Shown here: positions 3,272-49,845 of the stretch, in pieces
Numbering within the stretch: position 1 is the first letter of the stretch
Layout: the number at the start of each line of letters is the position of its first letter
Source of the DNA: Flavobacteriia bacterium
GTDB taxonomy: Bacteria > Bacteroidota > Bacteroidia > Flavobacteriales_D > Crocinitomicaceae
DNA length: 64,000 nt
Reading direction: 5' to 3'
Assembly: GCA_016183815.1 (NCBI GenBank)
Contig: JACPDW010000016.1
Coordinates: forward strand, 1 to 64,000
Notes under the pieces: generated by a model
Seen by the model: only the letters and a program-made list of their open reading frames with translations
The model's database searches: none
Told to the model about the DNA's origin: nothing
Program-made: the position numbers and the translations under genes

Positions 3272-6200
3272 CCTACTAATTCAACAATTAAATTTAATTT
3301 TTCAATTTCATTAATCATTTTGTCGTTAGCATTAATTTTGATATTTTTAGATTTAAGTTCTACAAAATTATTGTCTTCATTGATTAGGATTTTTAAAGGG
3401 TGATTTCCTTTATTTTCATCAAATATCTTTTTTAAATTTTGTATTATAATACTGTCAACATTTTCGTTTTTTATTTTAATTAATAGTGCTTTAGTCCTTT
3501 TTTCTCTTAAATTATGAAGTAAATCAATGGTTTTAATATTGAAATCCAATTCATCTCTATAACGATGTTTTTCAACCACACCATGAATATAAACAAAAAG
3601 ATTGTTGTCCAACATGTGTTTGTTTTTTAAATACGTTTCTCCAAAAAGTGAAAACATTGTGGAATCGTCAATGCCATCAACTACAATTCTGCCATAAGGT
3701 TCATTTTTTTTGGACATTTTATGTTCAGCTAAAGTAATGATTCCAGCAACTAAAAATTCTTGATTGACCTTATAATTTTTATTCTTAATATCTGAAATAC
3801 TACCTTTTCCGAGTGCATTGATTTCTTTTTTGAATGTATCTAAAGGATGTCCAGAAATGTAAATTCCTACTACTTCTTTTTCTTTGATTAATTTTTGAAT
3901 GATACTCCAATCATTTCCTTGAGGAATTTCAGGTTCATAAAGAGTCATTTCTTCGCTGTCACCAAACATATTCATTTGATCGCTGTTTGCATTTTCTTTA
4001 TGAGCATTGGCATATTTAATCACATTTTCAATAAATATTTTGCCATTTTTGTCTTCTAATAGATATTGAGATCGTTTGAGAGAAAAACTATCAAAACAAC
4101 CTGAATAAACGAGTGCTTCTAAAGTTTTTTTATTAACTATTCTTAAATCAACTCTTTTTGTTAAATCAAATATAGATTTAAATGGACCATTTTCTGTTCT
4201 TTTCTTAATGATTTCATCTACTGAAGCTGTACTTAAACCTTTTATTGCACCTAATCCAAAACGAATATTTCCATCTTTACTCACTATAAATTGATGTTCA
4301 GATTCATTGATGTCTGGTATTAAAACATTTATACCCATTCTTTTACATTCTTCCATTAAAAATGCAATTTCTTTGATGTCGTTCATTTTTCCCGACAAAC
4401 AAGAAGCCATAAATTCAGATGGAAAATTTGCTTTTAGGTAGGCAGTTTGATAAGCCACCCAAGAATAGCAAGTTGAATGGGATTTATTAAAAGCATATTC
4501 AGCAAAAGCGTTCCAATCAGACCAAATTTTTTCTAATTTAGCTTTGTCGTGGCCATTTATAGCTCCACCCTCGATAAATTTAGGTTTCATTTCTTCAAGG
4601 ATCGAAGCTTGTTTTTTTCCCATAGCTTTTCTCAAACTATCTGCATTACCTTTAGAAAAATTCGCTAATTTTTGCGACAACAACATCACTTGTTCTTGAT
4701 AAACAGTTATTCCATACGTTTCTTTTAAAAATTCTTCACAATCATCTATATCGTAAGAAATTTCTTCTTTACCGTGTTTTCTTGCAATGAATTTTGGAAT
4801 ATAATCCATTGGTCCTGGACGATACAATGCATTCATTGCAATTAAATCTTCAAAAATAGTAGGTTTTAAATCTTTTAAATGTTTTTGCATTCCAGGAGAC
4901 TCAAATTGAAACACTCCAACGGTTTCTCCTTTTTGAAATAATTCATAAGTTTTTTCATCATCAATCGGTATTAAATCAGGGTCTATTTCTATGCTTTTTG
5001 TTGATTTGATAATTTTAAGTGCTTGTTTGATTGTTGTTAATGTTTTAAGTCCTAAAAAATCCATTTTTAATAGTCCAGCATGATCAACAACGTGGTTATC
5101 AAACTGGGTACAAATCATTTGTGAGTCTTTAGCTGTAGTAACAGGCACAAAATCACTGATGTCGTCAGGAGTAATAATTACACCACAAGCATGTATTCCT
5201 GTATTTCTAACCGAACCTTCCAGCTCTTTGGCTTGATTCAAAACTTTTAGCTTCAATTCATCGTTACCTTTGTAAACGGATATTAACTGTCTTGCTTTAG
5301 CAATTTCATCTTGACGGTCGCCAATAATTTTTTCTAAGTTTTCAAAGGGTGTTTCCAATAATTTTTTTAAGGAAATGTTGGGCATCATTTTGGTTAAACT
5401 ATCCTGCTCGTGTATTGGTAAACCAAGCACTCTTCCTGCATCTTTTATTGCAGATTTTGCGGCCATTGTACCATAAGTAATAATTTGAGCTACCTGTTTA
5501 GAGCCGTATTTATTGATAACCCAATCAATAACTTTTCCTCGTCCTTCGTCTTCAAAATCTATATCAATATCAGGAAGAGAAACCCTATCAGGATTTAAAA
5601 AACGCTCAAAAAGTAAGTTGTACTTAATAGGGTCTATGTTCGTAATACCGATACTATAAGCAACTACAGAGCCAGCGGCTGAACCTCTACCAGGACCAAC
5701 CCATACGTCCATTTCACGAGAAGCATTGCAAAAATCTTGAACAATTAAGAAATAACCAGGATAACCAGTATTTTTTATTGTATTTAATTCAAATTCAATA
5801 CGTTCTTTAATCTCATCTGACAAATCACCGTATCTTTTTTTTGCACCTTCGTAGGTAATATATCGAAGATAATTATTCTCACCTCTTTTTCCTCCATCGT
5901 TTATGTCATTAGGATCTTGAAATTCTTCTGGAATGTCAAAAGCGGGTAAAAGAACATCTCTTTGAAGAGAATAGGATTCAATTTTAGATAGAATGTCTGA
6001 AATACTTTCAATTGCTTGAGGAAGATCTGCAAACAACTTTTTCATTTCGTCAGGAGATTTAAAATAATATTCTTCATTTTCTAATCCCACTTTGAATTTT
6101 CTTATTTGCTGGTCTTCTTCACTTTTCACCATTCCCTCTTTCACATAATGTAAAATCTCACAAGTATTGGCATCTTTTTTATTAATAAAATAAGTGTTGT

Positions 6201-8235
6201 TCGTTGCAACTAATTTAATTTGATGTGTATTTGATAATCTTACTAATGCTTCGTTAATGTGGGCTTCATTTTTTATTCCTAAACGTGTTATTTCTAAATA
6301 AAAATCATCTTGAAATGTTTCTTTCCACCATAATATATTTTCATTTGCTTTTTCTACTCCATACCTATCAATTGTCCAAGAAATTTCTCCATTTATCCCA
6401 CCAGATAAAACAATTAAATCCTCTTTATAAGTAACTAATAAGTTTTTATCAATTCTCGGAACATAATAAAATCCGTCAATAAAGGATATAGAAGATAATT
6501 TTATCAAATTTTGATACCCTTTTTTACTTTTAGCTAATAAAACAATAGTTGTACCGTTGTCTTTGACTTTTTTATCGGCATGGTTTTCACATAAATTGAA
6601 TTCACAACCAATAATTGGTAATATTAAGTCATTGATTTGAATTTCTTTATCAGAACTTTTTTCAAGAATTTTATCTTTATATTCCTTGTTTTTTTTACTT
6701 ATATATTGTTCAAAAATAAATGCAGCGTACAAATTACCGCAGTCTGTTAATGCAATTGCTGGCATTTGGTATTCTATTGCTTTATCAACTAGTTTAGAAA
6801 CTGTACTTGTTGATTGTAAAATTGAATATTGTGAATGGTTATGTAAATGAACAAATGGAGGGTTTAATTTTTTGTATAAATCAATAATTGTGGTTTCTAC
6901 ATTTTCATTTTTCAATAAGAGTTTAAATTCATCTAAAACCTTATTTCTAAAATGAATAAAATCAAGTTTATATGTAATAAAAAATGGATTGTACTCTAAA
7001 TATTTTGAAGCTAATGTTATGTACTCCTTAGTATTTTCTAATTCTGAAAAATCTGTTAAAATTAATTGTTCATACTTTTTTACCCAAGGATTAATTTTTT
7101 CAGAGGGGATTGAAAGGGGAAGAATTTGTAAAAATAATTTGTAAAGATCTTGATTCTTATTTTCATTAAAAGAAGTCTCTATCAAATTCAAAAAATAGGG
7201 GAGTACTTCTGTTCGAATAGATTGAAAAATTACATCTATTTGAGGTATTTTTGGATTTGTACTCGAAACTAACCTTTCAATTAACTTGTAATAATGCAAA
7301 ATCTCTTCATTATTTTTTTCATTGAAAAAGTAAAATAATTGTTCTGAATAACATTGAACACTTTCTATTTTTAAATTTTGATGTTTGAGACCAATGAGAG
7401 AAGTGATTTGCTGATTTTTCTCTCTCAATTCATCTAAATAGTTTTCTTCTTGTACTAATTCTTCTTTGCTGTAAAAATAAGTTCGAAGCATCTCGAAAAA
7501 ACATCGAGCTGTTGCCTCCACATCGGCAGTAGCATTATGTGCTTCATCAAAAGAATGCTCAAATAATGTTAAATACAATTCACCTAAGGTCGGAAATTTC
7601 TGCTTTTTAATATTACTAATTAAAAAATCTATATGGGAATTATTCCAATCTTGCCATTTTGAAAGTTCGTTTCTTATTTTTTCTTTTTCAGATAAATTGT
7701 CTTGATTTTTAAAAAAAATACTTTCTCTTATCTCCAAACCATTAAGCGTTTGAACATCACCAAATTTATTTCTTTTTAACTCGAGGACATCACCTTTTCG
7801 AATAAATTTGATGGCAGCACATATTTTTGCAGATTTTTCATTACATGTATCAAGTATTTTTTTGTCGTGTAATGAGGTAGCTTGATTTAATCTACAAAAT
7901 GCCGCTCCCATTACGTTAATATCAAACGAAATATTATGACCAACCACAAATTCAGTTTGTTCTAATACTGTATTAAAAGCTGTACAAACTTCTTCGATAG
8001 GACTTCCTTTTTTTTGAGCCAATAAAGTAGAAATACCATGAACTTTTTCTACTTCAAATGGAATTTGAAGGTCTTTCGATTGAATTAAAAAAGATTTTTG
8101 TTCGATCAAATTTCCCCATTTGTCGTGTAACTGCCACGCTAATTGTACTGGTAATGGCCAATTGTCTGTCTGTTGATAAGATAAATTCCAATCTTTCGGT
8201 AAACCAGTGGTTTCTGTGTCAAAAATTAAATACAT
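3268..8235 (-). CDS. dnaE: DNA polymerase III alpha subunit with fused 3'-5' exonuclease
   Basis: The 1655-residue replicative polymerase. Residues 1-255 form a DEDDh proofreading exonuclease: D6 and E8 in FDTETTG, D105 in HNISFD, and H233/D238 in AHNATADVEAT. The PHP domain starts near 462 (FVHLHNHSQYS). The polymerase core has VGPGRGSAAGS (847-857) and the catalytic PDIDIDFED (888-896). A C-terminal helix-hairpin-helix and OB-fold region follows. The exonuclease fusion to DnaE is common in Flavobacteria-like lineages. Two parts look longer than usual: an insert of roughly 80 residues inside the exonuclease (about 140-220) and a linker of about 190 residues before PHP. A promoter-like sequence lies just upstream at 8255-8285. 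Confidence 0.95.
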   Translation of the reverse strand: MYLIFDTETTGLPKDWNLSYQQTDNWPLPVQLAWQLHDKWGNLIEQKSFLIQSKDLQIPFEVEKVHGISTLLAQKKGSPIEEVCTAFNTVLEQTEFVVGHNISFDINVMGAAFCRLNQATSLHDKKILDTCNEKSAKICAAIKFIRKGDVLELKRNKFGDVQTLNGLEIRESIFFKNQDNLSEKEKIRNELSKWQDWNNSHIDFLISNIKKQKFPTLGELYLTLFEHSFDEAHNATADVEATARCFFEMLRTYFYSKEELVQEENYLDELREKNQQITSLIGLKHQNLKIESVQCYSEQLFYFFNEKNNEEILHYYKLIERLVSSTNPKIPQIDVIFQSIRTEVLPYFLNLIETSFNENKNQDLYKLFLQILPLSIPSEKINPWVKKYEQLILTDFSELENTKEYITLASKYLEYNPFFITYKLDFIHFRNKVLDEFKLLLKNENVETTIIDLYKKLNPPFVHLHNHSQYSILQSTSTVSKLVDKAIEYQMPAIALTDCGNLYAAFIFEQYISKKNKEYKDKILEKSSDKEIQINDLILPIIGCEFNLCENHADKKVKDNGTTIVLLAKSKKGYQNLIKLSSISFIDGFYYVPRIDKNLLVTYKEDLIVLSGGINGEISWTIDRYGVEKANENILWWKETFQDDFYLEITRLGIKNEAHINEALVRLSNTHQIKLVATNNTYFINKKDANTCEILHYVKEGMVKSEEDQQIRKFKVGLENEEYYFKSPDEMKKLFADLPQAIESISDILSKIESYSLQRDVLLPAFDIPEEFQDPNDINDGGKRGENNYLRYITYEGAKKRYGDLSDEIKERIEFELNTIKNTGYPGYFLIVQDFCNASREMDVWVGPGRGSAAGSVVAYSIGITNIDPIKYNLLFERFLNPDRVSLPDIDIDFEDEGRGKVIDWVINKYGSKQVAQIITYGTMAAKSAIKDAGRVLGLPIHEQDSLTKMMPNISLKKLLETPFENLEKIIGDRQDEIAKARQLISVYKGNDELKLKVLNQAKELEGSVRNTGIHACGVIITPDDISDFVPVTTAKDSQMICTQFDNHVVDHAGLLKMDFLGLKTLTTIKQALKIIKSTKSIEIDPDLIPIDDEKTYELFQKGETVGVFQFESPGMQKHLKDLKPTIFEDLIAMNALYRPGPMDYIPKFIARKHGKEEISYDIDDCEEFLKETYGITVYQEQVMLLSQKLANFSKGNADSLRKAMGKKQASILEEMKPKFIEGGAINGHDKAKLEKIWSDWNAFAEYAFNKSHSTCYSWVAYQTAYLKANFPSEFMASCLSGKMNDIKEIAFLMEECKRMGINVLIPDINESEHQFIVSKDGNIRFGLGAIKGLSTASVDEIIKKRTENGPFKSIFDLTKRVDLRIVNKKTLEALVYSGCFDSFSLKRSQYLLEDKNGKIFIENVIKYANAHKENANSDQMNMFGDSEEMTLYEPEIPQGNDWSIIQKLIKEKEVVGIYISGHPLDTFKKEINALGKGSISDIKNKNYKVNQEFLVAGIITLAEHKMSKKNEPYGRIVVDGIDDSTMFSLFGETYLKNKHMLDNNLFVYIHGVVEKHRYRDELDFNIKTIDLLHNLREKRTKALLIKIKNENVDSIIIQNLKKIFDENKGNHPLKILINEDNNFVELKSKNIKINANDKMINEIEKLNLIVELVG

Positions 8236-9750: not shown

Positions 9751-11850
9751 ATGCAAACTAAGTTCTTTGATACAGATATCACTTTTTTAAAAGGAGTTGG
9801 TCCAGAAAAAGCAGAGTTGTTAAAAAAGGATTTTTCAATTCATACTTATTTCGATTTGCTTCATCATTTTCCTTTTAGGTATATTGACCGATCAAAAATT
9901 GTCAGTATTAAAGACGCTATTTACCAAGATGATTATGTTCAAATAGCAGGAACAATTGTCTCCTTAACAGAAACAGGAAAACAAAGAAGTAAAAAATTAA
10001 TTGCTGTTTTTAGCGATGGAAAAAATCAAATTGATCTCGTTTGGTTTCAAGGTGTTAGTTGGGTGAAAGCGAGTATAAAAAACAAACAATCGTATTTATT
10101 ATTCGGAAAAATTAAAAAGTATCAAAATCAATTTTATATTCCACATCCTGATTTACAAGAGTTTAATGCTGAAAATAGTTTTAAAAAATTCAAACCTGTT
10201 TATTCTTCTTCAGAAAAATTAAGTGCTAAAGGTTTAAATTCTAACGGTTTTGAAAAAATCATTTCTCAGCTAATCCAACAAGTTGAAGGTAAAATTGAAG
10301 ACCCTTTTCCTTTAGATTTTATACAACAAATTCAACTTCTTCCTTTAGATGAAGCCATTCATGAAATTCATTCACCCGATTCTTTAGAAAATCTTCAAAA
10401 AGCTCAATATCGTTTAAAATTTGAAGAGTTATTTTTTCTTCAACTGGAATTATTAAGCAGAAAATTGATTAACCATCAAAAGAATACCTCTTTTTGTTTC
10501 AATAAAATAGGTCAATATTTCAATGATTTTTTTTCACATCATATGCCTTTTGAATTGACTTCAGATCAAAAAAAAGTGCTTCGTGAGATTCATAACGATT
10601 GCAAAAGTTCATTCCAAATGAATCGTTTATTACAAGGTGATGTTGGAAGTGGGAAAACTATTGTGGCATTTTTTACTATGTTATTGGCATTAGACAATGG
10701 ATTTCAAGCTGCTTTGATGGCTCCAACAGAGATATTAGTTCAACAACATTTTGATAATTTTAAAGAATTTGCCAATGTCCTTAATTTAAACATCGCAAAA
10801 CTGTCTTCTTCTACTAAAAAAAAGGAAAGATCCTCACTTTTGAGTAAACTTGAATCTGGTGAAATTCAGATAATTGTTGGTACTCATGCATTAATCGAAG
10901 AACAAGTAATTTTTAAAAATCTTGGAGTAGTGGTTATAGATGAACAACATCGTTTTGGCGTTGCTCAAAGAGCTAAATTATGGCATAAAAACAAAAAAAA
11001 TCCTCATATTTTAGTTATGACAGCGACGCCAATTCCCCGGACATTAGCCATGACCGTATATGGTGATTTAGATGTTTCCATAATTAAAGAATTACCACCA
11101 GGACGTAAACCAATTACGACCGTACATCGTTTTGAAAGTTCTCGTTTAAGTGTATTTCAATTTTTAAAAGAAGAAATTGCAAAAAACAGGCAAATTTATA
11201 TAGTATATCCATTGATTGAAGAATCAGAAAAATTAGATTATATGAATTTGATGGAAGGATATGAATCAATTTCTAGGGCGTTTCCATTGCCTGAATATCG
11301 AATAAGTATTGTCCATGGAAAAATGAAAGCTGAGGACAAAGATTTTGAAATGCAGCGGTTTATTAAAGGAGAAACACAAATTATGGTTGCAACAACGGTT
11401 ATTGAAGTGGGCGTTAATGTTCCCAATGCTAGCGTGATGGTGATTGAAAGTGCAGAACGTTTTGGATTATCACAACTTCATCAATTACGTGGTAGAGTAG
11501 GGAGAGGTGCAGAAAAATCGTATTGCATTTTAATGACTGGAAATAAAATTTCTAAAGAAGGCAAATTGCGTTTAGAAACTATGACAGAGTCGCAAGATGG
11601 GTTTAAAATTGCTGAAGTTGATTTAAAATTAAGAGGTCCAGGCGATTTATTAGGTACGCAACAAAGTGGAATTTTAGATTTAAAAATTGCTGACCTAACA
11701 AAAGACGGAGAGGTCTTAAGTCGTGCAAGAACGATAGCGATTAAAATGTTAGAAGAAGACCCTTCGTTAGAAAAAAAAGAGTTGCAAAAAATTAGAGAAA
11801 AATTAGAAAATAAATTAAATAACAAAATAAATTGGAGTAAAATTTCGTAA
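9751..11850 (+). CDS. recG: ATP-dependent DNA helicase RecG
   Basis: The 699-residue helicase that remodels stalled replication forks and branch-migrates Holliday junctions. The N-terminal wedge (OB-fold) domain covers about 1-170 (LKGVGPEKAELL at the start). The SF2 motor contains Walker A GDVGSGKT, motif II DEQH followed by RFG, motif III TATPIPRT and motif VI QLRGRVGRG. The C-terminal part (LRGPGDLLGTQQSG) is typical of RecG. The length agrees with the family. I take ATG 9751 rather than TTG 9727 because the upstream -7 box leaves no room for the longer form. It converges with the methyltransferase gene across 262 bp. Confidence 0.95.
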   Translation: MQTKFFDTDITFLKGVGPEKAELLKKDFSIHTYFDLLHHFPFRYIDRSKIVSIKDAIYQDDYVQIAGTIVSLTETGKQRSKKLIAVFSDGKNQIDLVWFQGVSWVKASIKNKQSYLLFGKIKKYQNQFYIPHPDLQEFNAENSFKKFKPVYSSSEKLSAKGLNSNGFEKIISQLIQQVEGKIEDPFPLDFIQQIQLLPLDEAIHEIHSPDSLENLQKAQYRLKFEELFFLQLELLSRKLINHQKNTSFCFNKIGQYFNDFFSHHMPFELTSDQKKVLREIHNDCKSSFQMNRLLQGDVGSGKTIVAFFTMLLALDNGFQAALMAPTEILVQQHFDNFKEFANVLNLNIAKLSSSTKKKERSSLLSKLESGEIQIIVGTHALIEEQVIFKNLGVVVIDEQHRFGVAQRAKLWHKNKKNPHILVMTATPIPRTLAMTVYGDLDVSIIKELPPGRKPITTVHRFESSRLSVFQFLKEEIAKNRQIYIVYPLIEESEKLDYMNLMEGYESISRAFPLPEYRISIVHGKMKAEDKDFEMQRFIKGETQIMVATTVIEVGVNVPNASVMVIESAERFGLSQLHQLRGRVGRGAEKSYCILMTGNKISKEGKLRLETMTESQDGFKIAEVDLKLRGPGDLLGTQQSGILDLKIADLTKDGEVLSRARTIAIKMLEEDPSLEKKELQKIREKLENKLNNKINWSKIS

Positions 11851-41095: not shown

Positions 41096-42028
41096 ATGGA
41101 ATTAGGAATATTAAAAACAGTTACACCAAGACAAAAATGGAATAACGAGGCAAGAGATTTTACTCCTTGGCTAGCGAATAACATATCAGAATTGAATAAA
41201 GCTCTTGGAATTGAACTTGAAGTTGAAAACACTGAGGTTAGTGTTGGACCTTATTCCGCAGATATTTTGGCAAAGGATACTGGCACAGATAATTATGTTG
41301 TCATTGAGAATCAATTAGAAAAAACAAATCATGACCATCTAGGTAAAGCAATTACATACGCTTCTGTGTTAGATGCTTCCATGATAATTTGGATAGCTAC
41401 TGAATTTACAGAAGAACATAAAAAATCATTGGATTGGCTTAATGACCATACAAATGATGAGATTTCATTTTATGGAGTGCAATTAGAATTGTGGCAAATT
41501 GACGAAAGCAAAGCTGCTTTGAGATTCAATGTGATTAGTAAACCAAATCAGGCTGTTAGACAAGCAGCAAGGTCGAAAGTAAATGAGGACTTATCTGATA
41601 AGCGAAAATTCCAATTTGACTTTTGGAGTAAGTTCAAAGAAAAATTAGCGAAGACAAAAAAGATTCCTTCGCTTCAAACTCCAAGACCTCAATATTGGTT
41701 TGACGTGACTTTAGGTAAATCATATATTCATATTTCAAATACTTGTAACACGGACGACAATACTGTTGGCGTGCGGATTTATATAGGAAATAAGATTGCC
41801 GATACAATGTTGCCATTTTTGGAGACTAAAAAAGAGGAAATAGAATCCTCAATCGGACAAAAACTAATATGGAATCCAAATCCAGACAATAGAGATAAAG
41901 TAATTTTCTTGCAACATACGACTGAATTTGAGGATGAAAAGAAGCTGGACGAGTCATTGAATTGGCTTGTTGATTATACAATAAAATTTAGAGAAACATT
42001 TTCAAAGATTATAAAACAAGCACCATGA
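41096..42028 (+). CDS. DUF4268 protein with a PD-(D/E)xK nuclease-like domain
   Basis: A 310-residue protein. Residues 1-150 look like a restriction-endonuclease fold: VGPYSADILAK supplies the Asp (D56) and VVIENQLEKTNHDHLG the E-N-Q motif (71-73), a known variant of the (D/E)xK catalytic strand. The C-terminal DUF4268 part starts near 165 (FWSKFKEKL). Such proteins occur as single genes in accessory DNA and are thought to be nucleases, possibly for defence; activity has not been shown here. It stands alone, followed by the first long direct repeat. A hairpin at 41028-41043 precedes it. Confidence 0.7.
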   Translation: MELGILKTVTPRQKWNNEARDFTPWLANNISELNKALGIELEVENTEVSVGPYSADILAKDTGTDNYVVIENQLEKTNHDHLGKAITYASVLDASMIIWIATEFTEEHKKSLDWLNDHTNDEISFYGVQLELWQIDESKAALRFNVISKPNQAVRQAARSKVNEDLSDKRKFQFDFWSKFKEKLAKTKKIPSLQTPRPQYWFDVTLGKSYIHISNTCNTDDNTVGVRIYIGNKIADTMLPFLETKKEEIESSIGQKLIWNPNPDNRDKVIFLQHTTEFEDEKKLDESLNWLVDYTIKFRETFSKIIKQAP

Positions 42029-42120
42029 AAACAAAAGCCGAACCTCTAACATTGTATATAAAACATTTGGCAGTCAGTGGATTATCGAGCGTTTCAACTC
42101 GTATCAAAAGTACTTTTAAC

Positions 42121-42552
42121 CCCTGTTCCGCTGGATTTGCAATCCTGCGGTTATTCCCACTTCGCTGCATTTGTAATGCTACGTTTTATTTCAAGATTAT
42201 TTTGTTCAATAGATTTCTAAAAAATGGTAGTAAAAATAAAAATTTTAGTGCCGAAGGATTGTAAATCCAACGTAGCTTAGTAGCTTTTTTAAGCTAATAA
42301 TACCATATACAATTATTAAATATCCCATAATTAAAAAGTATCCCCGAAAAAAAATCGGGATAATAATATACCGAAACAATATGTAAATAGACCAATTTTA
42401 TTGGACTATCTTGAATATGTATTCGGTACAAGAGCGGCTTTTTTTAAACTTGATACTTTGCTAAAAAGTACCAAAAATATTAATGAAAGTTGCTTAAAAT
42501 TAAAATATTTGCTTATTTTTGAGTTGAATTTAAATAAAAATTTTTAGACGAA
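42121..42552 (+). repeat. Long direct repeat, copy 1 (left of the R-M operon)
   Basis: About 432 bp that recur at 46804-47242 with only a few substitutions and small indels. Inside are a REP-like palindrome (CCGCTGGATT / AATCCTGCGG at 42128-42150), a second half-palindrome GGATTGTAAATCC, an imperfect C/G hairpin around CCCGA-A(n)-TCGGG, and a long imperfect palindrome (42368-42430) bounded by ACCGAA and TTCGGT. No transposase or recombinase is encoded. Confidence 0.9.
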
Positions 42553-42622
42553 CTGACGTTATGCCTCACTCTAAAACCAACCGCAAAAATCCAACATTCG
42601 ACAAAAATTAACAAAAAAAAAC

Positions 42623-42652
42623 TTGCTGAATTAAAAAAAATAGTTAAATTTG
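42623..42652 (+). promoter_or_regulatory. Promoter of the R-M operon
   Basis: TTG (42623-42625), a 19-nt spacer and TAAATTTG (42645-42652) fit the consensus exactly. The ATG of the controller gene is 32 nt downstream of the -7 box. Confidence 0.65.
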
Positions 42653-42666
42653 TCATTTAATGACAA
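42650..42666 (+). promoter_or_regulatory. Operator palindrome (C-box-like) of the R-M operon
   Basis: A perfect 17-bp palindrome, TTGTCATT-T-AATGACAA, overlaps the -7 box. It is flanked by a direct repeat GTTAAATTT (42643-42651 and 42667-42675). Controller proteins of R-M systems bind such sites to first activate and then repress their operon; the assignment to this protein is an inference from position. Confidence 0.65.
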
Positions 42667-42684
42667 GTTAAATTTTACAAGCAA

Positions 42685-43011
42685 ATGAAAGCAACTTTTG
42701 GAGAATACATCAGACAATTAAGAACAAATAAAGGTTTGACTTTGACTGAACTTGCGGCATTGCTAAAACTAGATTCTGCTAATTTGAGTAAAATTGAAAA
42801 TGGCAAACGTGAATTTGACGAAAAACGTTTAGACAAATTAGCAAATGCTTTCGAACTTGACTTTGAAAAATTGAAAGTAGAATATTTTGGCGACCAATTT
42901 GCTAAAAAAATGTATGCTTACAATTGTTCATCTGAAACATTAATGGTTGTAGAAGAAAAAGTAAATTACTTAAAAAGTATAAATGTTAAACAAGCCGAAA
43001 TAAAATTCTAA
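42685..43011 (+). CDS. XRE-family controller (C) protein of the R-M system
   Basis: A 108-residue helix-turn-helix regulator. The HTH spans about 14-45 (KGLTLTELAALLKLDSANLSKIENGKRE is the family pattern in two pieces: LTLTELAALLKLD and SANLSKIENGKR). A short C-terminal extension follows. It is first in the operon, 4 bp before the methyltransferase gene. Its promoter carries a palindrome over the -7 box. In known systems such proteins delay endonuclease expression until DNA is methylated; here the order C-M-R in one transcript would serve the same purpose. Confidence 0.8.
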   Translation: MKATFGEYIRQLRTNKGLTLTELAALLKLDSANLSKIENGKREFDEKRLDKLANAFELDFEKLKVEYFGDQFAKKMYAYNCSSETLMVVEEKVNYLKSINVKQAEIKF

Positions 43012-43015
43012 AACT

Positions 43016-45523
43016 ATGAACAAACCATTGACATACATTAGTTTATTCAGCAGTGCAGGAGTTGGATGTTACGGCTTCAAACAAAACGGTTTTGAATGCA
43101 TTGCGACAAATGAAATTTTAACAAAACGCTTGAAAATACAAGCATTTAATAACAAATGCAAGTATGAAACAGGCTATTTAGACGGAGATATTTCAACAAA
43201 AGAAATAAAAAACAAACTTTTTGCTGAAATCAAAAAATGGCAAACTGAACATAAAATTTCAGAGCCTGATGTCATTGTGGCTACGCCACCTTGTCAAGGA
43301 ATGTCTGTTGCTAATCACAAAAAAAATCAAGAGCTAACAAGAAATTCTCTGGTTGTAGAATCAATAAAAATAACAAAAGAAGTAAATCCAAAATTCTTCA
43401 TTTTTGAAAATGTAAGAGCATTTTTAAACACAACTTGTACAGATGTTGACGGTAACGAAAAAACGATAGAAGAAGCCATAAAACTTAATTTAGGTGGACA
43501 TTACAATATACTTTTCAAGGTTGTAAACTTCAAAGATTATGGTTCACATTCAAGTAGAACAAGAACGCTTGTAATTGGTGTTCGTAAAGATTTACAAAAC
43601 ATTAGTCCTTTTGATATTTTCCCCGAGAAACATAAGCCGAAAACATTACGCAAACTTTTTATAGGTTTAGAAGAATTAAACGAAATGGGGAAAATATCGG
43701 AAACCGATATTTTCCATTCGTTCCGAGAGTATAATATAAATATGTTACCTTGGATTGAAACTCTAAAAGAAGGACAATCCGCATTTCAAAATACTGAAGA
43801 AAATAGAATTCCTCATCAAATAAAAGATGAAAAAATTGTTTTTAATGAAAGTAAAAACGGAGATAAATATGCTCGTTGGTATTGGGATAAAGAAGGTCCT
43901 TGCGTACATACAAGGAACGATATTTTATCAAGTCAAAATACTGTTCACCCAGCAGAAAACAGAGTTTTCAGCATTAGAGAGCTAATGTTGATGATGAGTA
44001 TTCCAGAAAATTTTCAATGGACAAATACTTCAATTGAAAAGTTGAATAATTTAAGTTTTCTTGAAAAGAAAATGTTTTTGAAAAAAGAAGAATTGAACAT
44101 CAGACATTGTATTGGTGAATCAGTTCCTACTGGCGTTTTTGCAAATATTGCAAAAAGGATTAAAGATGTATTAAATCAAAAAGTACTTTCAACAACTGAA
44201 ATAAATAACATCATTAAAAAAGAAGAATTGAGTAAAATTGAAAATTTACTTTCTTTTATTAATGAAGATTTTGAAAAATCAGGACTTGAAAATATATATC
44301 AAATTGCAGAATACGCAAATTCAAGCAGACAAGAAAATTCAGCATTTTTCACACGAAAAGATATTGCTTTTTCGGTTGTTAAAGACTTGCCTGAACTAAA
44401 AGGAAAAAAGAAAATTAGAATTTTAGAACCTTCAGTTGGTATTGGTAATTTCATTCCTTTGTTGATAGAGAAATACAAAGATAAAGACGAAGTAATTTTT
44501 GACCTTGTTGATATTGATAACAATTCCTTTGTTGTTCTGAAAAATATTTTGGATAAATTAAAATTGTCTAAAAAGTTTAAATTTAATTTTATCAATGCTG
44601 ATTTTTTGACTTATAATTTTAATACAAAATATGATATTGTTGTAGGTAATCCACCATACAAAAAACTTACAAACAGTCAAGAATTATTATCGCTTTATAA
44701 ATTCAATGCAAGAAATAACGAAACAAATAACTTGTTTTCTTTTTTCATTGAAAAAGCCATTTCATTAGGAAACTTCGTTTCCTTAATAGTTCCAAAAAGT
44801 CTTATTAATTCACCTGAATTTAATATTACAAGAGATATTTTGAATGAGAAAAATCTATTGAAAATTTGTGATTATGGAGAAAAAGGGTTTAAAGGTGTAA
44901 AAATTGAAACGATAAGTTTCTTACTTGAAACTTCATCAAAAAAGCAAACTGAAAACATTTTGATTGAAAGTTATATTACTGAAACGTTTGAAGTGAAACC
45001 AAAAGAATATTTATTTTCTAATAGATTTCCTTATTGGTTGATTTATCGAAATGAAGAATTTGACCAAATTTCAGAAAAAATGAAATTCGATATTTTCAAT
45101 AGTTTCAGAGATAGGCAAATCACAAAACAAATCACGAAAGAAAACGGAATATTTAGAGTTTTAAAATCTCGAAATGTTGGTAATAATGAGGTTAAAGAAT
45201 TGGAAAATTACGATTGTTATATTGACGATACAGAAAATTTGGCTGTCGCCAAATTTCTTAATCGTGATGATGTGGTAATGATTCCCAACCTTACTTATTA
45301 TCCAAGGGCAAGTTTTTTACCAAAGAACACAATTACAGATGGTTCAGTAGCATTATTGACTTTGAAAAATGGAAGCCGACTTCCGACTGAAAAAGATTTA
45401 GAATATTACGGCTCTAAAGAATTTGAAAAGTTCTATAGAGTTGCTCGTAATTATGGTACACGTTCATTAAACATTGACAATAATTCCGTATTTTTCTTCG
45501 GACTTTTAAAAGAAATTGAATAG
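43016..45523 (+). CDS. Fused DNA methyltransferase: m5C domain plus m6A domain
   Basis: An 835-residue polypeptide with two complete methyltransferase domains. Residues 1-390 are a cytosine-C5 enzyme: LFSSAGVG (motif I), PPCQG with the nucleophile Cys93 (motif IV), ENVRAF (VI), SRTRTLVIGV (VIII) and IGESVPTG (X). Residues 440-835 are an adenine-N6 enzyme with EPSVGIGNF (motif I, 471-479) and NPPY (545-548), then a target-recognition region. Paired m5C and m6A modification is known for type IIS systems with asymmetric sites, such as Eco31I, Alw26I and Esp3I, one domain for each strand. The recognition sequence cannot be deduced. No gap separates it from the endonuclease gene. Confidence 0.87.
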   Translation: MNKPLTYISLFSSAGVGCYGFKQNGFECIATNEILTKRLKIQAFNNKCKYETGYLDGDISTKEIKNKLFAEIKKWQTEHKISEPDVIVATPPCQGMSVANHKKNQELTRNSLVVESIKITKEVNPKFFIFENVRAFLNTTCTDVDGNEKTIEEAIKLNLGGHYNILFKVVNFKDYGSHSSRTRTLVIGVRKDLQNISPFDIFPEKHKPKTLRKLFIGLEELNEMGKISETDIFHSFREYNINMLPWIETLKEGQSAFQNTEENRIPHQIKDEKIVFNESKNGDKYARWYWDKEGPCVHTRNDILSSQNTVHPAENRVFSIRELMLMMSIPENFQWTNTSIEKLNNLSFLEKKMFLKKEELNIRHCIGESVPTGVFANIAKRIKDVLNQKVLSTTEINNIIKKEELSKIENLLSFINEDFEKSGLENIYQIAEYANSSRQENSAFFTRKDIAFSVVKDLPELKGKKKIRILEPSVGIGNFIPLLIEKYKDKDEVIFDLVDIDNNSFVVLKNILDKLKLSKKFKFNFINADFLTYNFNTKYDIVVGNPPYKKLTNSQELLSLYKFNARNNETNNLFSFFIEKAISLGNFVSLIVPKSLINSPEFNITRDILNEKNLLKICDYGEKGFKGVKIETISFLLETSSKKQTENILIESYITETFEVKPKEYLFSNRFPYWLIYRNEEFDQISEKMKFDIFNSFRDRQITKQITKENGIFRVLKSRNVGNNEVKELENYDCYIDDTENLAVAKFLNRDDVVMIPNLTYYPRASFLPKNTITDGSVALLTLKNGSRLPTEKDLEYYGSKEFEKFYRVARNYGTRSLNIDNNSVFFFGLLKEIE

Positions 45524-46696
45524 ATGAGAGAACAAATAAATATTTTTTTAGAACAATTTGATTTTGATATACGAAAATCAAAAGATGCAAGATTTGTTGA
45601 CCAAAAATGTACTCCTGACATTGTTTGTTTTATGGCTGATTGTGTTTTAAATATGATTGCAACTAAACCAACTTTTGTAATAAATGATATTTGGGAAACT
45701 CAATATTTCATTCAAAATTGTAGAGTTGTGTTTAACAAACCTTGGGCAAATGATAAAAATGCAAAAAATGAATACAATAAAGTTCTTTCGCAACCATTGA
45801 AATTACTGGCATATTCACAAATATTAAAAGTAGAAAAAATTAAAGGTTCATTGGCCTTTTCGGTAAACAATGAAGAACTTTTGGATTTCATTTCTAGAAA
45901 AGACAGAAACGCTTACAATTTTCTATATTGCTACTTTACAAAAGTTCTATCAGACAGTGGTTTTTTAAAAAATTTAGAAGAATATAAAATAGAGCATCGT
46001 AAAGGTTTAAACAACGCAAGAGAAAACCTATACAATAAATATTTTCGATTTATTTCAGGTAATACGCCAACTCGTTCTAGACTTGATATTCGAAGAATGT
46101 TTCATAAGATATTGAATATTTACGCAGTTGAGCATAATCTTCTAGGAAGTAAAGGGAAATTCACAATGACATTTTCTGAAACTATGTACAATAAAAAGAA
46201 TTGGAGAGATGTAAATAAAGAAAAATCAATTACAAGACAAGAAACATTAAGTGCTCAAGATATTGAAAAACAAGAAATTATTAATGCTTATTATGTTCAA
46301 AAAGCCATTGCACTTATTCGCAAAACACATAAGGAAAGTGAAATGAAAGACCAATGGGGTAATGGAGAAGCTACACAAGTTCATCATATTTTTTCCCGTG
46401 CTGAATTTCCAGAACTTGCGCATTATGTAGAAAATCTAATTTTACTAACAGCAACACAACATAATACAAAAGCTCATCCAAACAACAGAACTCAACAAAT
46501 AAACAAAGATTATCAATTAACTTGCTTGTTGGCTAAATCTGACAGTATTGAAAAATCTCTAAAAAAAGGGGAATTCGTTTATAGAAAAGAATCTTTTATT
46601 TTCGTAATTAACACAGGTTTATTAGTTGAATTAAGTGACAAACTTGACTTTGTAACTATTAAATCGGAATTGACAAAAATATATAATGTTGCTTAA
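45524..46696 (+). CDS. HNH-type restriction endonuclease
   Basis: A 390-residue protein whose C-terminal part has an HNH nuclease motif: VHHIFSRAEF (His287/288), ENLILLTATQHNTKAH (Asn304, His313). The N-terminal 270 residues show no known domain and presumably recognise the target. The ATG follows directly on the stop of the fused methyltransferase gene, which together with the controller gene makes the R-M assignment strong. Type IIS enzyme Eco31I is also an HNH nuclease paired with m5C/m6A methylation, so a related mode of cutting is plausible. The terminator at 46747-46788 closes the operon. Confidence 0.82.
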   Translation: MREQINIFLEQFDFDIRKSKDARFVDQKCTPDIVCFMADCVLNMIATKPTFVINDIWETQYFIQNCRVVFNKPWANDKNAKNEYNKVLSQPLKLLAYSQILKVEKIKGSLAFSVNNEELLDFISRKDRNAYNFLYCYFTKVLSDSGFLKNLEEYKIEHRKGLNNARENLYNKYFRFISGNTPTRSRLDIRRMFHKILNIYAVEHNLLGSKGKFTMTFSETMYNKKNWRDVNKEKSITRQETLSAQDIEKQEIINAYYVQKAIALIRKTHKESEMKDQWGNGEATQVHHIFSRAEFPELAHYVENLILLTATQHNTKAHPNNRTQQINKDYQLTCLLAKSDSIEKSLKKGEFVYRKESFIFVINTGLLVELSDKLDFVTIKSELTKIYNVA

Positions 46697-46746
46697 TCAA
46701 ACTCGAAAAAAGAAGGGCGAAGGCATAACATTTAGAGAACTAGCAG

Positions 46747-46788
46747 AAAAAAGCCCAAAATTAAAGCCCTGTACGTGGGCTTTTTTTT
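46747..46788 (+). terminator. Rho-independent terminator of the R-M operon
   Basis: AAGCCCA and TGGGCTT form a stem extended by A/T pairs, with an 18-nt loop, followed by eight T. It is 50 bp after the endonuclease stop. Confidence 0.85.
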
Positions 46789-46803
46789 GTTAGTTCGTGT
46801 TGA

Positions 46804-47242
46804 CCCTGTTCCGCTGGATTTGTAATCCTGCGGTTTATTCCCACTTCGCTGCATTTGTAATGCTACGTTTTATTTCAAGATTATTTTGTTCAATAGATTT
46901 CTAAAAAATGGTAGTAAAAATAAAAATTTTAGTGCCGAAGGATTGTAAATCCAACGTAGCTTAGTAGCGTTTTTAAGCTAATAATACCATATACAATTAT
47001 TAAATATCCCATAATTAAAAAGTATCCCCGAAAAAAAAATCGGGATAATAATATACCGAAACAATATGTAAATAGACCAATTTTATTGGACTATCTTGAA
47101 TATGTATTCGGTACAAGAGCGACTTTTTTTAAACTTGATACTTTGAAAAAAGTAAAATAAATATTAATGAAAGTTGCTTAAAATGGAAATATTTGCTTAT
47201 TTTTGAGTTGAGTTTAAATAAAAAAGGAGGTTATTAGACGAA
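46804..47242 (+). repeat. Long direct repeat, copy 2 (right of the R-M operon)
   Basis: About 438 bp nearly identical, in the same orientation, to 42121-42552. Differences are scattered single bases and short indels, mostly near the right end (an extra GGAGGTTA-like segment before TTAGACGAA). Its REP-like palindrome is at 46811-46833. Homologous recombination between the copies would delete the R-M operon as a circle. Confidence 0.9.
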
Positions 47243-47300
47243 TTTAGGTTATACATCAGCATTGAAGTACACACTTAATAAAATAAATGTTAAATAATTT

Positions 47301-47347: not shown

Positions 47348-47692
47348 GTGAAAGAATATAAATTTAGAGTTAAGTTTTTGGAAGAAGTAAAACAATTTTT
47401 GGACAAATTAGATGAAAAATCCAGAGACAAAATAATTTACAATATTTGGAAAGCTCGTAGCTCAAATGACAAAGACCTTTTTAAAAAACTTCAAGACAAA
47501 ATATGGGAATTTAGAACAAAGTATAATAAATTTTATTTTCGACTTTTTGCGTTTTGGGACAAGTCAGACAAAAATGATACTGTTGTAATTTCCACTCATG
47601 GTTTGATAAAAAAGACAGACAAAATTCCAAAAAGTGAAATTGAACACGCTGAAAAATTGAGAGAAAAATATTTTAAAAATAAAAAGTTATGA
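47348..47692 (+). CDS. higB: HigB-like toxin (phage-derived Gp49-like family)
   Basis: A 114-residue RelE-superfamily toxin with GTG start. It begins KEYKFRVKFLEEVKQFLDKL and contains DLFKKLQDKIWEFRTKYNKFYFRLFAFW, the pattern of HigB/Gp49 proteins, then THGLIKKTDKIPKSEIEHAEKL. These cut mRNA on the ribosome. The toxin gene comes first and overlaps its antitoxin by 4 bp, the reversed gene order typical of higBA. It lies beside long repeat copy 2 and may help keep the R-M island in place. Confidence 0.85.
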   Translation: MKEYKFRVKFLEEVKQFLDKLDEKSRDKIIYNIWKARSSNDKDLFKKLQDKIWEFRTKYNKFYFRLFAFWDKSDKNDTVVISTHGLIKKTDKIPKSEIEHAEKLREKYFKNKKL

Positions 47693-47997
47693 AAACATAT
47701 AGTTTAGAAGATTTAACTGATAAATATATCGGTAAAAAAGGCACAAAAAAAAGAGATGAGTTTGAAAATGAACTTCGACTTGATTTGTTGGGTAAAGCTA
47801 TAAAACAAGCTAGACAAGAACGAAATTTGACACAAGAAGAACTTGGCGAAATGGTGGGAGTAAAAAAAGCACAAATATCAAAAATTGAAAATAGTACAAC
47901 TGACGCTAGGTTTACAACTATTCTAAAAGTTTTTGAAGCATTGGGAGCAAGAGTGATATTTAATGTTGAACTAAACAACAGAAAAATAGCCTATTAA
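47689..47997 (+). CDS. higA: HigA-like antitoxin, XRE family
   Basis: A 102-residue helix-turn-helix protein. The HTH occupies about 40-92 (RNLTQEELGEMVGVKKAQ then ISKIENSTTDARFTTILKV). The N-terminal 35 residues (MKTYSLEDLTDKYIGKKGT) should wrap the toxin. The overlap with the toxin gene gives coupled translation. It probably represses the operon through the palindrome at 47301-47318. Confidence 0.85.
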   Translation: MKTYSLEDLTDKYIGKKGTKKRDEFENELRLDLLGKAIKQARQERNLTQEELGEMVGVKKAQISKIENSTTDARFTTILKVFEALGARVIFNVELNNRKIAY

Positions 47998-48975: not shown

Positions 48976-49221
48976 ATGGACATTTCAGTAATACCAATAG
49001 GAAACTCGAAAGGAATTCGATTATCCAAAACCGTGATTGAAAAATATAATATTCAAGATACAGTTGAACTCATTCTTGAAAAAGGGTTTATGATTCTTAA
49101 ACCCAAAACCGCACCGAGAAAAGATTGGGAAAAATCATTTAAGAAAATGCACGAAAATGGCGACGATAAATCTTTAATGTCCGACGTTTTTGACGACGAA
49201 AATTTTGAGGAATGGTCTTGA
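48976..49221 (+). CDS. mazE: MazE-like antitoxin, AbrB/SpoVT fold
   Basis: An 81-residue protein. The N-terminal swapped-hairpin DNA-binding domain is clear: ISVIPIGNSKGIRLSKTVIE followed by VELILEKGFMILKP. The acidic C-terminus (SDVFDDENFEEWS) is the flexible toxin-binding tail. It overlaps the toxin gene by 10 bp. The palindrome at 48952-48965 is its likely binding site. Confidence 0.88.
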   Translation: MDISVIPIGNSKGIRLSKTVIEKYNIQDTVELILEKGFMILKPKTAPRKDWEKSFKKMHENGDDKSLMSDVFDDENFEEWS

Positions 49222-49535
49222 AACAATATCAAATCGTATTAGTTAATCTTGACCCAACAATTGGAAGTGAAATGAAAAAAACTCGACCATGTATAATTAT
49301 TTCACCCGACGAAATTAATCGACATTTACAAAGTGTTGTAATAGCTCCATTGACAAGTACTTCAAAACCTTATCCGACTCGAGTTTTGGTAAAACATAAT
49401 AAACAGAAAGGATGGGTCGTACTTGATCAAATTAGAACAATCGACAGAAGACGTGTAATCAAAGCATTTGACTCACTCACTGAAAAAGAAATTAATAATG
49501 TTAAAGCGATAATAAAGGAAACATACGTTGACTAA
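49212..49535 (+). CDS. mazF: MazF-like mRNA interferase toxin
   Basis: A 107-residue protein matching the MazF/PemK family: QIVLVNLDPTIGSEMKKTRP, CIIISPDEIN and VIAPLTSTSKPYPTRV, then GWVVLDQIRTIDRRRVIK. Family members cut single-stranded RNA at short sequences. ATG 49212 lies inside the antitoxin gene; TTG 49218 is an alternative. This is the last clear accessory gene before the purine genes resume. Confidence 0.9.
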   Translation: MVLKQYQIVLVNLDPTIGSEMKKTRPCIIISPDEINRHLQSVVIAPLTSTSKPYPTRVLVKHNKQKGWVVLDQIRTIDRRRVIKAFDSLTEKEINNVKAIIKETYVD

Positions 49536-49845
49536 TTGGGTAAAAAAACGGCACAAAACATTTATCCAAGTTGACCAAAAATCATTAAAAATCGAATAAA
49601 TTATTGATTCAACATCACTATTTTGTTGTTTTAATTATTTGAGTCTTTCAACTTTTGTCGATTTATAAATCGTTCAAGGAAATTGGTTCAAATTTGCACT
49701 TTTTTTTAAATTTTCCTTTTCAGCATCGTTTTCGAGCAAAAATCTAAATGTAATTCGATTATTTTCAATTCATACCTTTTACGATTTATTTTAATCATCT
49801 GATATTATTAGAAAAATTTTATTATTATTGTAAAAAATATTCAAA
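49536..49845. other. Gene-free stretch between mazF and guanine deaminase
   Basis: About 310 bp of AT-rich DNA. I see no coding frame, no hairpin with long arms and only a near match to a -7 box (TATTATTG) about 15 bp before the deaminase start. It forms the right border of the accessory island. Confidence 0.4.

Follow-up and report, generated by a model that had tools for sequence, protein, structure and literature searches.

The window analysed here is the whole stretch of 64,000 nucleotides at positions 1 to 64,000 of contig JACPDW010000016.1 (assembly GCA_016183815.1), from a Flavobacteriia bacterium of the Crocinitomicaceae, in which a predicted Type II restriction-modification (R-M) operon lies between two direct repeats of about 435 bp. 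We consider it quite probable that this operon is an integron-type cassette, and that its two joining sites, filled with mobile palindromes, are what looks like a pair of direct repeats. Carrying this reading are the mosaic make-up of the repeats, the matched inverted ends of the unit between them, the recurrence of the same ends in another lineage, cassette arrays elsewhere in the genome, and the linkage of one type of integrase to attC sites. More broadly, we lean modestly towards the view that the operon belongs to a widespread integron class of Bacteroidota, with XerA/IntI-like integrases that lack the additional domain, which surveys selecting for that domain would have missed and which would move defence genes across the phylum, the attC cores changing while cassette bodies and end words are kept. 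In the mechanism that we propose, a XerA/IntI-like tyrosine recombinase would cut out cassettes and insert them at G|TT, the end words meeting in the circular form as the arms of an attC-type palindrome, and the R-M operon would have arrived or moved in this way. Repetitive extragenic palindromic (REP) hairpins and palindromes resembling miniature inverted-repeat transposable elements (MITEs) would later have invaded the joining sites, each of which grew to about 500 bp, so that the two sites around the operon came to look like long direct repeats; the left 308 bp of the sites would then have been homogenised later than the tails, probably by homologous exchange.

The limits of the R-M cassette run from G|TTATGCC (42558) to GGCATAAC (46729), and its ends, GTTATGCC and GGCATAAC, form a mutually complementary, inverted pair of 8-9 bp. 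The first bases of the cassette, G|TTATGC(C) at 42558..42564 (+ strand, as are all window features given here), serve as the R' end of site 1 and are complementary to the R''-like end of the cassette, GGCATAAC at 46722..46729. Upstream, the R''-like word of site 1, CTCTAAC (42044..42050), precedes ATTGTATA, an arrangement shared, by eye, with attC sites of other Bacteroidota (loci L051, L058 and L100). Site 2 contains a hairpin (GAACTAGCAGAAAAAAGCCC / GGGCTTTTTTTTGTTAGTTC) at 46730..46803, with a folding energy of -12.7 kcal/mol for the DNA at 46721-46806, and ends in an R' word, GTTATAC (47248..47254), whose best downstream complement is only 7 bp long.

Relatives of the operon's methyltransferase occur at 23 loci in named genomes, with 83-96% identity in seven (six Bacteroidota and one Ignavibacteria; one match partial); the restriction enzyme had no match in 199 other genomes sampled from the family. 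The DNA similarity of the operon to its relatives is confined to the stretch between the repeats, and is longest, at 42556-46730, in L062, a Porphyromonadaceae metagenome-assembled genome, where it starts just past copy 1 and stops 74 bp before copy 2. In L062, whose methyltransferase is 91% identical, the operon carries the ends of the window cassette, GTTATGCCT / AGGCATAAC, and lies between attC palindromes, and no BLAST match to the window repeat was found in its flanks; nor, within the available flanks, was the repeat found around the operon in any of the 23 related loci (E<=1e-5). Ends that stay unchanged in another lineage whose flanks hold no repeat point to integron-type site-specific, not homologous, recombination. 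The first-pass annotation had described a composite cassette that spreads by homologous recombination: the operon does show the behaviour of a mobile cassette flanked by related sites, and further genes of this genome likewise lie between sites of the same family, but the proposed route does not account for the cassette-specific inverted ends, GTTATGCC...GGCATAAC, kept in L062.

Other relatives show the same architecture with different words. L052 has the right end of the window cassette, together with a similar attC-type palindrome; paired 9-bp ends with attC-type palindromes downstream bound the operon in L051 (GTTGTGCGT/ACGCACAAC) and in both L053 and L055 (GTTGTACAC/GTGTACAAC), and L050 has a 7-bp pair, GTTATAG/CTATAAC, with an attC-like palindrome downstream. 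Paired ends plus an attC-like palindrome are thus present in five of the 20 relatives scanned (L050, L051, L053, L055 and L062). Between L053 and L055, and again between the window and L062, the end words are shared but the palindrome cores differ. In the minimum-energy DNA folds of the L051 and L062 sites the R'' and R' ends pair; both sites also match our attC model, in part circularly, as both were among those used to build it. By eye, an extra similar gene follows the restriction enzyme in L047, L049, L051, L053, L055 and L067, lying inside the cassette in L051, L053 and L055, and is absent from the window.

Within the same genome, five consecutive cassettes lie on contig C27; by eye they encode a signal-peptide protein, an ATPase-like protein, an esterase-like protein, a RelE/helix-turn-helix (HTH) pair and one unknown. 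Every unit begins at a GTT word and finishes in ...AACATTTATCC, and the two ends are exactly complementary over 10 bp in three units and complementary at 8/9 positions in a fourth (by eye), one unit failing. The complementarity of a cassette start to its own R'', an integron trait, is seen both in the window (8-9 bp) and across the genome: for 7 of the 14 cassette starts predicted, a complementary word of at least 9 bp with a terminal AAC lies no more than 5 kb downstream, whereas a control with starts tried against other contigs yields 3 of 158. Counting itself, the C27 site is matched 32 times genome-wide, and three of these matches fall in the window (42472, 47170 and 49557); the last, at 49557..49706, is a third site of the genome's cassette family (AACATTTATCC...; 73% match to the C27 site, E 4.3e-17). 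A genome search for other genes bracketed by the repeat, as called for earlier, had two outcomes: the genome (3.24 Mb, 44 contigs) yielded no further full-length copy, but the C27 genes lie between sites of the same family.

A recombinase is linked to such sites in other genomes. In the Psychroserpens locus L053, where the methyltransferase shows 70% identity, the gene at 5271-6443 encodes a tyrosine recombinase and lies directly upstream of the R-M operon, which is the first cassette, with a likely attI position between the two. There attC-model matches follow the recombinase at 11185, 12026, 12354 and 13271; the model was built from nine sites beside R-M operons, matches to which carry no weight, and the last three L053 matches were not among them. 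A Chryseobacterium plasmid (L099) carries the same recombinase type and then four attC-model matches, and on a Rufibacter plasmid (L100) the integrase precedes small genes on the same strand, accompanied by short attC-like sites that were recognised by eye and by a stem scan. Inside these integrase-linked arrays we also observed IS110-family transposases and a group II intron reverse transcriptase (L099 13206-14207 and 15672-16988; L100 15950-17008), a content that fits the attC-targeting insertions known elsewhere.

The best match of four such Bacteroidota integrases is the NCBI XerA-like model 'site-specific tyrosine recombinase/integron integrase', at 205-225 bits (two of the four reach its cut-off of 220), and against the IntI model TIGR02249 they score 196-207 bits (cut-off 265), the match falling in two stretches. 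The integrase of our own genome matches TIGR02249 only at 3-180 and 238-315, skipping profile positions 181-237, which we take to be the place of the IntI additional domain; by its profile alignments, the recombinase type apparently lacks this domain, so that the usual definition of an integron by an IntI with the additional domain would not apply to it. Among PDB matches of the L053 integrase, XerA came first, a XerC-like protein second and the solved IntI (2a3v) third. A profile made from the four integrases scores at least 240 bits in 70 of 198 genomes of the phylum, our own included, the next matches lying at about 204 bits and below, though a high profile score is no proof of function.

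Searched with the attC model, 30 integrase loci (116.6 kb; the best profile matches, from 29 or more other genomes plus our own) gave 20 matches at E<=0.01, of which 19 lie downstream on the integrase strand and one upstream; downstream matches are present in 17 of the 30 loci. For 20 Xer-like loci from this phylum (77.8 kb in all), chosen by hand among the lower-scoring integrase-profile matches listed, the model found no match at E<=1, and it found none at the genome's own XerC-like locus (L091). A stem scan of 27 of the 30 integrase loci detected 25 sites in 37.3 kb downstream and 11 in 34.6 kb upstream, against 1.6 in shuffles. We also observed that on the Acinetobacter baylyi plasmid NZ_CP104735.1 (L139, 2552-4573) an annotated tet(X3) is immediately preceded by a tyrosine recombinase gene with 55% identity to the C-terminal portion of the L053 integrase, which looks like a piece of a Bacteroidota integron-like platform; among the 25 matches listed, 17 Acinetobacter entries have the same identity and extent, the neighbouring gene having been viewed in L139 only.

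The repeats themselves bear out part of the first-pass description. Two direct copies in the same orientation are present, at 42121..42552 and 46804..47242, and no transposase is recognised among the three operon genes between them. Aligned over 42121-42564 and 46804-47254, the copies agree in 428 of 452 columns; identity is unbroken for up to 135 bp, and an ungapped 204-bp block has one mismatch, likeness of a degree that excludes a chance origin. Each copy is a mosaic of REP and MITE-like modules plus the tail of a dispersed element: approximately, a REP hairpin at repeat positions 1-36, a REP doublet at 40-162, a MITE-like palindrome B at 178-311 and the tail of an element C at 308-435. These modules recur separately, a search of the genome returning 46 matches, namely the two copies and 44 partial ones that cover separate modules (some being neighbouring pieces of one place); four genus relatives gave no match to the repeat at E<=0.001. 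The REP hairpin (positions 1-31 and 7-36) flanks a Y1_Tnp gene on contig C11 on both sides in inverted orientation, the arrangement that marks REP elements of a REP-associated tyrosine transposase (RAYT), and the C43 match to positions 40-162 overlaps a weak hit of the attC model (E 0.056). By eye, B and C resemble MITEs with terminal inverted repeats; the inverted ends of C were read by eye on C31, and the repeat holds its right end. Palindrome B (window about 42298-42431) has some 20 further partial copies genome-wide and contains a terminator-like hairpin.

The copies had been called almost identical, which holds for repeat positions 1-308 (4 difference events) but not for 309-432 (11 events), an uneven divergence (4 events in 308 bp versus 11 in the next 124 bp; Fisher p = 3.5e-4) followed by 4 further events at 433-443. 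The tails of copies 1 and 2 differ at 9 of 119 compared positions, and a tail on contig C18 differs from that of copy 2 at 6 of 124 and from that of copy 1 at 10 of 120. From these counts the tails resemble two members of a dispersed family, the left part seems to have been shared more recently, and the step in divergence along the repeat suggests homologous exchange between the two sites.

That same step speaks for the route first proposed, in which RecA acting on the long repeats would release a circle with one repeat that reinserts at another copy, and 308 bp with 4 difference events would offer ample substrate for it. We regard this as improbable: searches of our genome and of the four genus relatives showed no further full-length copy as a target, and such a circle, although physically possible, would leave the identical GTTATGCC/GGCATAAC ends in L062 unexplained. 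Still less credible is a single insertion of the operon that duplicated a 435-bp target. In its favour, R-M insertions with long target duplications are on record (cited in the accessible text of PMC3031569), an operon flanked by a pair of long direct repeats has the expected layout, and on the left the conserved operon DNA begins within a few bases of where copy 1 ends. On the right, however, that DNA stops (46730) 74 bp before copy 2, and a single duplication predicts even divergence where the tails differ at 9/119 and the left part hardly at all. The tail of copy 2 is also slightly nearer to the C18 copy (6/124) than to copy 1, a small difference. We therefore rejected the reading of the repeat as one target duplication, given the uneven divergence (p = 3.5e-4) and tails that lie at about the same distance from one another as from further copies.

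Composite transposition by the REP/MITE machinery, two composite elements carrying the operon between them, we likewise hold very unlikely: REP hairpins do flank the Y1/RAYT-like transposase gene on C11, and B and C do look like MITEs, but the repeat is unmatched around the operon in the available flanks of the 23 related loci (E<=1e-5), no other gene block is bounded by two full composites, no other full composite existing, and L062 already looks as though the operon moved without composite elements. No RAYT element is known to carry cargo of several kilobases. The Y1/RAYT-like transposase was dropped as mover of the whole unit, the repeat not being found around the operon elsewhere.

Several results weigh against the integron-type reading itself. 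Among the 20 relatives scanned, 15 have no convincing end pair plus attC, and in an end-pair test of 19 R-M loci 6 reach 9 bp, compared with 31 of 342 swapped pairs (4 of the 31 being pairs that share a cassette); AT-rich words match by chance, which makes this test weak by itself, and the argument therefore rests on the attC palindromes found with the ends rather than on end-pair scans. For half of the genome's predicted cassette starts (7/14) no matched end was found, one of them with only 671 bp to search. In minimum-energy folds neither the window sites (520-534 nt) nor the C27 site pairs its R'' and R' ends, and the fold of the L053 site leaves the R' end unpaired. The attC model has no match in the window, misses all of the short Rufibacter sites, and lists three matches in the genome at E<=1, the best at 3.9e-4 (150 of 4812 candidates scored), which is an undercount given that a stronger match on contig C16 (E 7e-7) was missed. 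No circle or junction was seen, the analysis having covered assembled contigs and no reads. The empty site that the first-pass annotation had named as something to check for did not appear in exact form in the genus relatives (4 examined, two with a usable locus): in two of the four, G001 and G004, xdhA and guaD lie about 1 kb apart with no cassettes and, by eye, an XdhC-like gene between them, so that an empty site cannot be drawn at base level.

The genome's own recombinase adds to this weight. The best integrase-like gene (C18:923-2053) is interrupted by one in-frame TAG, the 919 bp downstream of it hold no stem-scan site, and the copies on C16 and C13 are fragments, that on C16 being a decayed integrase remnant beside cassettes, followed by genes and the attC-model match at E 7e-7. 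No integrase was found in a search of the window. Given the interrupted gene on C18, the array here may by now be fixed; it could be a fossil, or else rely on an enzyme from elsewhere.

The R-M operon comprises three genes: an HTH controller-like (C) protein (42685..43011; HTH_3 9.8e-13; PADLOC Control_protein 7.3e-08), a fused methyltransferase (43016..45523; PF00145 2.9e-41; PF07669 3.7e-12; PADLOC PDLC03277 over nearly its full length) and a Type II restriction enzyme (45524..46696; PADLOC REase_II PDLC03488 6.1e-81; HNH-like motif by eye). The methyltransferase would join a C5-cytosine domain to an Eco57I-type domain, the latter probably N6-adenine-specific; the restriction enzyme has no Pfam or NCBIfam match at E<=0.001 and no PDB match at E<=1. 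As predicted, the genes combine a methyltransferase and a restriction endonuclease in one operon, as expected of a Type II R-M system. In the array the operon stands between a DUF4268 gene (41096..42028; Pfam PF14088 1.7e-24; PADLOC candidate defence family PDC-S11 1.9e-112) and a unit with a Gp49/RelE-like toxin and HTH antitoxin pair (47348..47997; PF05973 3.3e-16; HTH_3 1.9e-14). Farther on, at 48976-49535, a MazF/PemK-like toxin (49212-49535, Pfam) has a probable antitoxin directly upstream (by position; no Pfam match), and the cassette-type site at 49557 comes after this region; the window array is thus defence-themed, with the PDC-S11 candidate, the R-M operon and two toxin-antitoxin-like pairs.

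Many cassette arrays beside integrases without the additional domain would make the need for that domain testable; going by the title of Messier and Roy's 2001 work, it is reportedly necessary for integron integrase activity. The R-M operon and its relatives show what such a system moves, and the occurrence of the same end words and similar bodies with different attC cores bears on the open issue of how cassettes are made and come by their sites. Integron-like systems are rarely reported in this bacterial group, though not unheard of in Bacteroidota: the accessible text of PMC8618304 lists the phylum among integron hosts, and that of PMC2426708 reports intI genes in the Bacteroidetes/Chlorobi group, from a 2008 survey that selected IntI by the additional domain or IntI patch. 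In the part of the IntegronFinder 2.0 paper available (PMC9024848), one complete Bacteroidetes integron is named, in Salinibacter ruber, earlier finds in Bacteroidetes having been integrase-only elements, and the accessible text on 11 taxon-specific attC models (PMC8352920) mentions none for Bacteroidetes; the known reach of integrons would thus widen into a phylum with one complete example named in the accessible surveys. A description of this Bacteroidota integrase or integron class was not found in the literature searched, in which journal coverage was incomplete.

Among known systems, integrons that carry R-M genes have been described (PMC3031569 and PMC8618304, in their accessible parts). 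The R-M insertions with target duplication or insertion sequence (IS)-linked movement treated in the accessible part of PMC3031569 likewise place an R-M operon between long direct repeats, but the cassette ends and the uneven divergence seen here speak against a single duplicated target. In Riemerella anatipestifer, also of the Flavobacteriia, gene gain has similarly been linked by the authors to attC-like folds, a stem-loop of this kind lying downstream of aph(3')-IVb (PMC13148043), but the available text names neither an integrase nor an array. The Salinibacter ruber integron belongs to the same phylum and, in the accessible account, was found by standard IntI and attC models (PMC9024848), whereas the integrases here fall below the TIGR02249 cut-off, the standard models as such not having been run on this system. 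With integron cassettes in general the system shares same-strand arrays, attC-type palindromes, cassette starts complementary to their own R'', GTT/AAC words, sites that are alike within one genome, and a cargo of toxin-antitoxin and R-M genes. It differs in an integrase that scores below the IntI cut-off, with a gap where the additional domain lies, in the integrase and cassettes pointing the same way in L053, L099 and L100, and in sites that in our genome reach about 500 bp and carry REP/MITE elements. The attC sites of Vibrio are far shorter than these. As in the chromosomal integrons of the Vibrio type, many similar sites in one genome make cassettes look bracketed by direct repeats, but here the sites hold dispersed palindromic elements.

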